Source of the DNA: Candidatus Gastranaerophilales bacterium
GTDB lineage: Bacteria; Cyanobacteriota; Vampirovibrionia; Gastranaerophilales; Gastranaerophilaceae
Assembly: GCA_944324345.1 (NCBI GenBank)
Contig: CALUVT010000003.1
Coordinates: forward strand, 124,001-188,000
DNA length: 64,000 nt
Reading direction: 5' to 3'
The first letter of the stretch is position 1. Every line of letters starts with the position of its first letter. Made by a program: the position numbers and the translations under genes. Below the pieces are notes generated by a model. That model was given only the letters and a program-made list of their open reading frames with translations. It did not search any database and was not told where the DNA came from. Below are positions 13,684-42,774 of this stretch, piece by piece.

Positions 13684-14407
13684 TCACCAGGGATAATCAT
13701 TATCAATTTTCCATCCATCAAAAAATATTAGAGCACCACACCACGAGCGGGATGTTGAATTGCAATTTTGCAGTATATCTGCTCTTGATTTTTCCCGCAA
13801 TTGGTAATTTTGTGGCTCTGACGCAGAATATAAAATTGTATAACTACCATTAAAAAATAATTTGTCATGCTTTGGAGAAAACATCATTCTAAATAAGTCT
13901 CTTCCCCATTTGTTAGGGCCTTTTTTAGCTCCATTTATATCAACAGTATAAGCAACAACTTGATATTTATTTCCATCCAGACCAAATATAATCCTTTGAC
14001 CAGAAGTTAAATCAATATAGTAATTGTGATGACCCGAAAGGCCAATTATACTTATCTCCATAGTCTAATGCAGGAGATTCCTTTTTAGTATTGATAATTG
14101 TTTTTAGATAAGGAGAAAAATACTGGTTTACGTAAGTATCTATGCAATCAAAATTATTCCAACCACATCCGTCTCCACCATTAATTGTCCCAATATTCCA
14201 TCCTATTGGGTCTCCATAGTCAGTTTTTGCCATTTGAATTACATTGGCTATTATATTATACGAAAACTTTAATTTTTCTATGGTCTGTTTTTTAGAATAT
14301 GAATCAACAAAACCAGATATCAGAATTGCTGCAATAATCCCAATTATACCTAAAGTTATAAGTACCTCTGCAATGGTAAAAGCCCGTTTTTTGCAGTGAT
14401 GTTTTAT
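13684..14407 (-). pseudogene. Prepilin-like gene A, start lost and frameshifted
   Basis: The N-terminal part reads KHHCKKRAFTIAEVLITLG, a type IV prepilin/pseudopilin leader and hydrophobic helix (14404-14300). The position of the usual ATG, in the paralogues GAT-ATG-AAA-CAT-CAC, is ATA here. A second break occurs near 14012-14061: one frame ends in DKYNWPFGSSQLLY and the protein continues in another frame (YYIDLTSGQRIIFG, then VDINGAKKGPNKWGRDLF, a typical prepilin C-terminal block). It could be a decaying gene, or the second shift could be an assembly error. The frame is open upward from the ATA through a G10 tract to an ATG at 14511. Confidence 0.75.
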
Positions 14408-14463
14408 ATCACTATTATACGATAACTTTGAACACTTGCAAGATATTAATTCTTGTAAAAAAC

Positions 14464-14511
14464 CTAGAAACGCCCCCCCCCCGACGTTCTCAATCCTTTT
14501 AACTCTTCCAT
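14464..14511 (-). CDS. 15-aa leader ORF with G10 tract before prepilin A
   Basis: AAAGGAGC lies five bases before an ATG that opens MEELKGLRTSGGGRF and a TAG stop. The three glycine codons are a run of ten G (14473-14482). Adding one G, or one -1 ribosomal slip, carries the frame through the stop and into the prepilin-like gene with no other stop on the way. This layout matches the leaders at 35685 and 42716, although the sequence has diverged. Confidence 0.6.
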   Translation of the reverse strand: MEELKGLRTSGGGRF

Positions 14512-34776: not shown

Positions 34777-35628
34777 TTACCTGCTGATAAGATATTTGTA
34801 CGAACATCCTGCACCTGCAGCCTCTGCAAAATTGGTAGATTGTGACTTCCCAATATTTTTGTCACAGCCCGAGGCTCCGTAATTTGGATCGTTATAGCCT
34901 GTAGTCCCAACAGCACCAGATGGGAGCATCTTATCTTCCCACAATTGTGCGCCAAACAAGTCTTTTCCAACCATATTTGGACCTTTTTTATACCCGTTAA
35001 CATCTATTATTATCCATGGACCACCCCATAAACCACCCATATAAATTACAGAACCGTCTGATAACAATATCATCTGAACAGAAAGATTATAATATCCCAA
35101 TTTCCCAACTCTATAAGGCATTTTATGCCCATTTACATTATAGAAACGGTTATCCGGAGTAGCCCCTAATGGATCATAACCCTGATTATGTCCCCAAACA
35201 TAGGTATCATCAGTCCATGACTTACAAGCTGGTGGATACGAATTACCATATCCTGGAGAGCAATGATCCAAAACCTTTAATTTAGAAACAAAAGAAGAAA
35301 CAAATTCAGGGTTGTAGTAGCCATAATCAAGATCAGTGTTTGGGTTACCATTTACACAGAGATTTGGATTGTATCTACTATGAGTTGCACAAAGCTCTAT
35401 CCCCTCGGCCCTAACCTCGTTAAAAACATTATTTACAACAGAATATGCCTTTTTCCATCTTGCGATATTTTGCCTGTCTTCTATCTTTGACAAGATTACA
35501 GGAATTGTAAGTGCTGCAACAACACCGATTATACCTAGCGTAATCAATACTTCTGCAAGCGTAAAGCCTAAATTGGGGGTAATAAAACCATATTTTCTAA
35601 CAACATTGTTTCTAGTGTGATGTTTCAT
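34777..35628 (-). CDS. Prepilin-like protein B
   Basis: With the ATG at 35628 (MKHHTRNN) the protein has 283 aa. The leader RKYGFITPNLG is followed by FTLAEVLITLG, the type IV prepilin/pseudopilin processing site and hydrophobic helix; cleavage by a PilD-like peptidase is expected before Phe. The C-terminal part has Cys residues and the block VIYMGGLWGG..IIIDVNGYKKGPNMVGKDLF, shared with the other prepilins. That ATG has no ribosome site. The frame is open back through a G10 tract to a well-supported ATG at 35732, out of phase by one base. It could form a surface fibre or an uptake/secretion pseudopilus. Confidence 0.85.
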   Translation of the reverse strand: MKHHTRNNVVRKYGFITPNLGFTLAEVLITLGIIGVVAALTIPVILSKIEDRQNIARWKKAYSVVNNVFNEVRAEGIELCATHSRYNPNLCVNGNPNTDLDYGYYNPEFVSSFVSKLKVLDHCSPGYGNSYPPACKSWTDDTYVWGHNQGYDPLGATPDNRFYNVNGHKMPYRVGKLGYYNLSVQMILLSDGSVIYMGGLWGGPWIIIDVNGYKKGPNMVGKDLFGAQLWEDKMLPSGAVGTTGYNDPNYGASGCDKNIGKSQSTNFAEAAGAGCSYKYLISR

Positions 35629-35744
35629 ATCACTGTTATAACACAATATTGAATCAAAAAAATTTTGACGTTGGTTGAAAGAGCTTAGAACGCCCCCCCC
35701 CCGAGGTTTTTAATAAATCTTAATACTTCCATAAAAAGCTCCTT
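35517..35744 (-). repeat. Duplicated prepilin 5' module, copy B
   Basis: This segment covers the ribosome site, leader ORF, G10 tract and the N-terminal 40 codons of prepilin B. By eye it is nearly identical to about 42531-42774. The boundaries are approximate, since identity falls off gradually inside the pilin body. Confidence 0.6.
35685..35732 (-). CDS. 15-aa leader ORF with G10 tract before prepilin B
   Basis: AAGGAGC lies five bases before an ATG that opens MEVLRFIKNLGGGAF and then TAA. The glycine codons are ten G in a row (35693-35702). One extra G, or a -1 slip, changes the frame to GTT CTA AGC and reads about 20 further codons without a stop into CYNSD-MKHH of prepilin B. This ATG lies 30 bases after a good promoter, whereas the prepilin ATG has no ribosome site. 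Confidence 0.65.
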   Translation of the reverse strand: MEVLRFIKNLGGGAF

Positions 35745-35761
35745 TTCTTTTCTACTAATCC

Positions 35762-35790
35762 ATTATAACATAACTTGAAAATTATTTAAA
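35762..35790 (-). promoter_or_regulatory. Promoter of prepilin B leader
   Basis: On the minus strand TTTAAA, a 17-base spacer and TATAAT preceded by TGT (extended -10) lie about 30 bases before the leader ATG. Confidence 0.6.
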
Positions 35791-41900: not shown

Positions 41901-42659
41901 TTACTTTATAAAATCTCCCCAATACTTCCCGCCTTCTTTGTCCGGATTTGTATTTGATATGGCATAGTGAGTACAAGTAAATCCACCATAATTAGGTCCC
42001 CCACTAACGGCTTTAACAAAAGAACATTGCCCATCTGTGGTAGAATTAGGCTTCTGAGCTGAAACATATCCATCTTTGTTAAAAGTAAATACATGTAAAT
42101 CATAACCAAGCTTGTTAGGGCCTTTCCCTGTACCGTTTATATCATAGTAGTATCTATCCCAACCAAAAACCAGCCCTCCAACCCAAACAGTTGCACCATC
42201 AGGTAAAATAACTGTCTTTTTTGTATAAGCATCCGGATCAATATGAACAGAACTCTTGCCATCTAGGGTCTTGTATCGAAATTTTTCGTCAGGAGAATTA
42301 GTTCCTATAGTACAAATATAATATTTCCCATCACAAACTCTGGCCCCTTGAGTAAATCTTGCAAAATCATTAATCTGTTTAACTGCCACAGCATCATCCC
42401 TGTCAACTCTATAGTCTTCATATGGATTAATATCATTCATCTTCATCATTAAATTAACATTTTGAACGACTGAATATGCTTTTTTAAACTGACTTTCCAA
42501 TACACTGACTTTGTATTTTGAAATCAAAGTCGGGATAGTCAATGCGGCAACAACACCAACTATACCTAACGTAATCAACACCTCTGCAAGCGTAAAGCCT
42601 AAATTAGGGGTAATAAAACCATATTTTCTAACAATATTGTTACTAACGTGATGTTTCAT
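41901..42659 (-). CDS. Prepilin-like protein C
   Basis: With the ATG at 42659 (MKHHVSNN) the protein has 252 aa. It shares RKYGFITPNLG and FTLAEVLITLGIVGVVAALT with prepilin B. A distinct body has a single Cys cluster and the C-terminal block VWVGGLVFGWDRYYYDINGTGKGPNKLGYDL. That ATG has no ribosome site, and the frame is open upward through a G10 tract to the ATG at 42763, out of phase by one base. It was probably made by duplication of the 5' module of B followed by divergence of the body. Confidence 0.85.
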   Translation of the reverse strand: MKHHVSNNIVRKYGFITPNLGFTLAEVLITLGIVGVVAALTIPTLISKYKVSVLESQFKKAYSVVQNVNLMMKMNDINPYEDYRVDRDDAVAVKQINDFARFTQGARVCDGKYYICTIGTNSPDEKFRYKTLDGKSSVHIDPDAYTKKTVILPDGATVWVGGLVFGWDRYYYDINGTGKGPNKLGYDLHVFTFNKDGYVSAQKPNSTTDGQCSFVKAVSGGPNYGGFTCTHYAISNTNPDKEGGKYWGDFIK

Positions 42660-42774
42660 ATCACTATTATAACACAATATTGAATCAAAAAAATTTTGGT
42701 GTTGGTTGAAAGAGCTTAGAACGCCCCCCCCCCGAGGTTTTTAATAAATCTTAATACTTCCATAAAAAGCTCCT
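42531..42774 (-). repeat. Duplicated prepilin 5' module, copy C
   Basis: This is the counterpart of 35517-35744. The leader codons, the G10 run and the flanking bases to the ribosome site are identical by eye. Differences appear in the region between the tract and the prepilin ATG and in the pilin body. The boundaries are approximate. Confidence 0.6.
42716..42763 (-). CDS. 15-aa leader ORF with G10 tract before prepilin C
   Basis: This encodes the same peptide as locus B, MEVLRFIKNLGGGAF with TAA, behind AAAGGAGC. The ten G are at 42724-42733. Adding one G or one -1 slip again reads without a stop into prepilin C. The promoter 31 bases upstream is close to consensus. Confidence 0.65.
   Translation of the reverse strand: MEVLRFIKNLGGGAF

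Follow-up and report, generated by a model that had tools for sequence, protein, structure and literature searches.

Programmed frameshifting and transcriptional slippage sites are built on a homopolymer at which a one-base shift gives rise to a longer product. In Neisseria, pilin variation involves the poly-G tract of pilC as well as the pilE/pilS system, and in Campylobacter the tracts follow the sense of the gene. Among the poly-G/C tracts of Campylobacter, 53% have nine bases and 26% have ten, with 5 to 81 genes per strain (PhasomeIt, PMC6321876), and guanine tracts are known to differ in behaviour according to the replication strand (reviewed in PMC10710837). For Gastranaerophilales and Melainabacteria, no relevant report on phase variation or homopolymers was found in the open literature. 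Judged from its sequence context, the run of ten G (G10) upstream of the gene called here prepilin B is probably, with a likelihood of about 60%, a contingency (phase-variation) switch in a long prepilin leader, which would act through changes in repeat length.

The locus lies on the minus strand of the window, as the whole 64,000-nucleotide stretch analysed is called here, and its features are collected in Table 1. A sequence-only reading of this region had described a promoter, the Shine-Dalgarno (SD) sequence AAGGAGC and an ATG at 35732, opening a 15-codon ORF that contains ten G and ends two codons later; all these elements are present exactly as described, the ORF ending at 35685 in GCG TTC TAA. 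The promoter-like site has an extended –10 TATAAT at 35767-35762, with TTTAAA 17 nt 5' of it, a type of consensus match which is common by chance (four found, 4.5 expected in shuffles). In the frame obtained with one extra base, that is with 11 or 8 G in the run or after a –1 slip, the same start was said to read on into prepilin B, and this is borne out by the stop-free sequence GGGVLSSFNQRQNFFDSILCYNSDMKHHTRNNVVRKYGFITPNLGFTLAEVLITL, which runs via VLSSFNQRQNFFDSILCYNSDMKHH into the prepilin. Likewise, the usual prepilin ATG, that of MKHH at 35628, does lack an SD and is placed directly 3' of TATAAC-AGTGAT. The upstream ATG and the prepilin are separated, inside a reading frame, by a homopolymer (G10) that is long enough for instability. 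A search of Rfam with the region gave chance-level matches only.

Table 1. Position of the features of the prepilin B locus and of the related elements within the window
Feature	Position	Strand	Remark
Promoter-like TTTAAA-17-TATAAT, TG before –10	35762..35790	–	Consensus match, leader ORF
Shine-Dalgarno AAGGAGC	35738..35744	–	5 nt 5' of ATG 35732
15-codon ORF MEVLRFIKNLGGGAF*	35685..35732	–	Product when the tract has 10 G
G10 tract, C at each flank, then GTTCTAAGCTC	35693..35702	–	C-G10-C...AGCT motif
Leader stretch VLSSFNQRQNFFDSILCYNSD, open in prepilin frame	35629..35692	–	Needs a one-base shift or 11 G
Example of a predicted peptide across the tract: NLGGGGVLSSFNQR			
Prepilin B coding region from internal ATG	34777..35628	–	N_methyl domain, GFTLAEVLITLGIIGVV
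Palindrome TATAAC-AGTGAT-ATGAAAC-ATCAC, spans internal ATG 35628	35617..35640	–	Promoter/operator-like
Palindrome copies in window	35617-35640, 42648-42671, 14396-14419	–	
Second copy MEVLRFIKNLGGGAF*, G10 at 42733-42724	42716..42763	–	Upstream of prepilin 41901-42659
Third copy MEELKGLRTSGGGRF*, G10 at 14482-14473	14464..14511	–	Upstream of prepilin

Runs of eight or more G are far in excess in the window, with nine overlapping matches against 0.23 expected at 34% GC, and two further tracts of exactly ten (14473-14482 and 42724-42733) are each located 5' of a prepilin. The tract at 14473 is in a different codon phase, yet it is also one base short of its own prepilin. PF07963 matches above cut-off in both intact prepilins of the window, which have the methylation motif with E at +5 and cleavage before F. 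The prepilin that follows the third tract (13684-14480, minus strand) seems to be divided between two frames, a 175-codon open frame followed by a 125-aa ORF, and may carry a second frameshift. The whole genome (Candidatus Gastranaerophilales, 1.76 Mb in five contigs, analysed as stretches around the tracts) holds 48 runs of at least ten G, 47 of which, 43 of ten and four of eleven bases, adjoin prepilins, a number of copies that rules out a lone chance run. In 39 of these 47 a ten-base tract leaves an SD and ATG one base short of the prepilin, while three eleven-base and two ten-base tracts are in frame; L014 has an interrupted tract, L040 offers two candidate ATGs, only one of them fitting, and L013 has no ATG start. 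The 48th run is an in-frame C10 (KIAPPPK) in an acyltransferase-like gene (L035, 1854-2978), with the polarity of the prepilin tracts and with polysaccharide/capsule-type genes as neighbours; examples of other surface-type genes with tracts are this acyltransferase and a glycosyltransferase-like gene (L150), all these genes being named by eye from sequence.

The genome contains 72 prepilin (N_methyl) matches, 68 of them above cut-off. Of the prepilins without a tract, those that were read have in most cases an ordinary SD, with an in-frame ATG near the mature N-terminus. Three others (L199, L200 and L201) have a similarly long, in-frame leader with no G tract and are possibly former tract genes now locked on. 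At about 380,750 of contig C1 (L205), an interrupted tract CCCCCTCCCGC follows AAGCTTTCAGAGTG, as a decayed C-sense motif. The end of contig C1 and the start of C3 (L047, L048) share an identical sequence with a T-rich run and a G9, and are an assembly break in a repeat. No 16S rRNA was found in the assembly.

The relation between tract and reading frame was followed in 143 distinct prepilin-linked tracts from this and related genomes (147 in some of the leader scans). Stops in the intervening frame of relatives had been proposed as evidence against a switch; the comparison was made, and the prepilin frame is stop-free from the tract to the FTLAE motif in 142 of 143. Where the gap is at least 45 nt, 93 of 94 copies are open in the prepilin frame, and 2 and 1 of 94 in the remaining two frames. 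Relative to the best SD and start, runs of ten are one base short of the prepilin in 86 of 92 cases, runs of eleven are in frame in 17 of 22, and runs of nine are two short in 12 of 16. The binomial p for the shared frame class is about 6e-39, but the copies are not independent, nine- and eleven-base copies were deliberately over-sampled and starts were picked by rule, so that the p-values of this test are indicative only. Whichever of the three codon phases a G-sense copy has, the favoured in-frame length is 11 modulo 3 (54/59, 18/21 and 16/18), and this also applies to the main phases of the C-sense copies (25/26 and 5/6), hence descent from a single leader is insufficient as an explanation. 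A conserved regulatory leader peptide was also considered and rejected, given that the peptide, the codon phase and even the sense vary among copies with a constant frame offset. Between tract and motif, any in-frame ATG, GTG or TTG is missing from 67 of 147 leaders, so that the upstream ATG is their sole evident start. A group of longer leaders, with about MKRLNAKQAHKFNKFHKACVEVSTCVAA 5' of the tract, is common to a number of prepilins and is not confined to a single genome (L142, L155, L156, L158, L087 and L145); L142 and L155, whose frames can be read, follow the same frame rule.

Run lengths in related genomes, whose count had been suggested as a check, are dominated by ten: in 33 genomes of the genus, G runs of exact length number 1,621 at ten bases, 150 at eleven and 148 at nine, counts which include some runs unrelated to prepilins. 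The share at exactly ten is 84.5%, the median per genome is 44 ten-G runs and the highest number is 169, while other families of the order Gastranaerophilales have almost no such runs. One genome of the same genus (G002) differs from its tract-rich relatives in that its eleven-base runs (15) outnumber its ten-base runs (12), perhaps with a different slippage balance. Nine- and eleven-base copies also occur beside ten-base ones in closely similar surroundings, as in L158 (ten) and L107 (nine), which come from two genomes and have 96-97% flank identity, and, within the present genome, in the similar flanks of L032 (eleven) and L007 (ten) and of L029 (eleven) and L017 (ten). Across the paralogues and close relatives compared, tract length differs, and such changes of length without a change of frame design fit phase variation at the DNA level. 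Some long-read data are prone to errors in homopolymers, so a true eleven might have been called as ten during sequencing or assembly; this is extremely improbable, because the same ten is found in relatives that include assemblies of several projects whose contigs are named in short-read style (k127, NODE), which makes a systematic undercall unlikely, and because these assemblies do distinguish nine- and eleven-base copies.

The tracts have a common surrounding motif, which on the G strand reads C-G10-C with AGCT on the 3' side for both senses. AGCT is present within 16 nt 3' of the run in 74 of 110 G-sense and 25 of 36 C-sense copies, as against 2 and 3 on the mirrored side, and C precedes and follows the run in 103 and 105 of the 110 G-sense copies and in all 36 C-sense copies. 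In about a quarter of the copies the messenger carries C10, read as proline codons, with the flanks reversed; being common to G-sense and C-sense copies, the motif is not a coding constraint. Polarity is mixed in none of 113 loci, including those with genes in both senses, 106 of 110 adjacent tracts have the same polarity, and at most two flips are found per genome, the two of the most complete genome matching one origin and one terminus. In pieces longer than 9 kb, 52 of 58 tracts have their G's on the G-rich strand, whereas in small pieces of about 4 kb, where GC skew is too noisy, the C-sense agreement is 9/18; G runs of lengths 4-6 show a mild skew (823 on the G-rich strand against 617 opposite). 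The term leading strand is here a presumption from GC skew; dnaA, at C1:659080, is distant from the polarity flips and thereby does not confirm the origin. In a literature search, no published account of poly-G polarity by leading strand was found.

The constant placement of the G's suggests that fork behaviour, rather than transcription or translation, limits the orientation that is retained. It might be supposed that the tract is primarily a DNA element (C-G10-C...AGCT), spread and held at ten by a fork-coupled process on one template strand, whose effect on the frame was co-opted later. The motif shared by both senses and the uniform polarity within loci and between neighbours would agree with this, but selection on slippage or fork stalling could instead give the polarity, and, in a search that was not systematic, neither an enzyme nor an empty site nor a target duplication came to light; such an origin is improbable. 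IMG/VR contains no copy of the motif, so a phage origin is unsupported. It is also quite unlikely that the tracts are set or reset to ten by a dedicated fork-coupled process that reads the C-G10-C...AGCT motif of one template strand; if they were, dozens of prepilins would be one base from expression by a programmed, not a random, DNA change.

As a contingency switch, the prepilin B tract would operate with translation starting at the ATG at 35732: with ten G, or nine, the ribosome would reach a stop few codons past the tract, while with eleven, or eight, it would read via the leader into the prepilin. Slippage during growth would change the run length, eleven would be a brief "on" state as longer runs tend to revert to ten, and in each cell few of the 47 prepilins would be made from the upstream start. 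A faster fall-back of longer runs is a possible adaptive reason for eleven, and not nine, being the "on" length. What is observed is the shared frame, the default of one base short, the eleven-base copies that are mostly in frame and the similar leaders differing in length. Some findings weigh against phase variation: the in-frame length is nearly always eleven and not nine, a direction that slippage alone does not call for, the lengths are much sharper than in Campylobacter, and genes of the MutS and MutL type are present in the genome, so mismatch repair would slow slippage. Programmed transcriptional slippage, in which the DNA would be fixed at ten and every cell would have a steady share of eleven-base transcripts, would explain the sharp ten in 33 genomes and the required shift of nearly always +1 base in any phase or sense, and could operate whether the messenger has G's or C's in the run; it leaves unexplained, however, the placement by replication strand and the nine- and eleven-base copies without re-framing, and we regard it as unlikely, although it has to be taken seriously.

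Switching of prepilin B had been ascribed to repeat-length change or to ribosomal frameshifting, and the comparison among copies favours the former and disfavours the latter. A programmed –1 shift on GGG GGG G would give, at ten bases, exactly the frame needed, and the slippery heptamer X XXY YYZ is present at the prepilin B junction, trivially so for any G10. The C10 copies, nevertheless, would require an identical shift, so that frameshifting would have to be as effective on proline runs with reversed flanks as on glycine runs, no stimulator conserved in the messenger sense is seen, with the motif reversed in the C-sense copies, and eleven-base copies are mostly in frame already; with either G10 or C10 in the messenger and no re-framing of nine- and eleven-base copies, –1 frameshifting is very improbable.

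With repeat-length change as the preferred reading, it has to be considered whether ten G is really the "off" state of prepilin B, as had been proposed. The upstream start is indeed one base short, but the gene has an internal promoter-like element and ATG which could act at any tract length, a further point against phase variation, so that prepilin B is perhaps still made at G10 and "off" is unproven. This element, a palindrome, is found in 33 of 147 leaders, with none expected in shuffles of the window, and resembles a promoter whose start is covered by an operator, followed by an ATG without a leader; a transcript from the prepilin B copy would be leaderless. Its consensus is TATAAT-AGTGAY-N6..8-RTCAC, often 3' of TTGTAAAA at –35 spacing. 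It sits in frame, as an insertion between tract and prepilin, and is sometimes kept where the ATG is lost (ATA, GTA). If the internal start is used, the prepilin B tract would determine whether the leader is short or long, and not whether the gene is on or off.

If the switching is real, this would be among the largest homopolymer switch sets described, in gut relatives of cyanobacteria, and pilus identity would be a stochastic per-cell trait of these gut inhabitants. Polarity by replication strand, whatever the gene sense, offers a clean natural test of the effect of the fork on homopolymer stability. The kind of system is already known, while its scale, the sharp length of ten, the motif and the replication polarity appear to be new. 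As in Campylobacter, intragenic poly-G/C tracts of 9-11 bases occur in a low-GC genome, in surface-structure genes, with the frame deciding between on and off; unlike in Campylobacter, 84.5% are exactly ten, with up to 169 G10 runs per genome, most of them one short, and the genes are mostly prepilins, with a common flanking motif and a fixed replication polarity. As in Neisseria, poly-G is found in the 5' coding region of a pilus biogenesis gene and G-rich DNA near a pilin gene, but here dozens of dispersed prepilin genes each have a tract in their leader, and no silent cassettes or gene conversion like those of pilE/pilS are in evidence. Finally, as at slippage and frameshifting sites, a one-base shift on a homopolymer gives a longer product, whereas the present system uses C runs as well as G runs, loses the offset on length change and has an orientation that follows replication.
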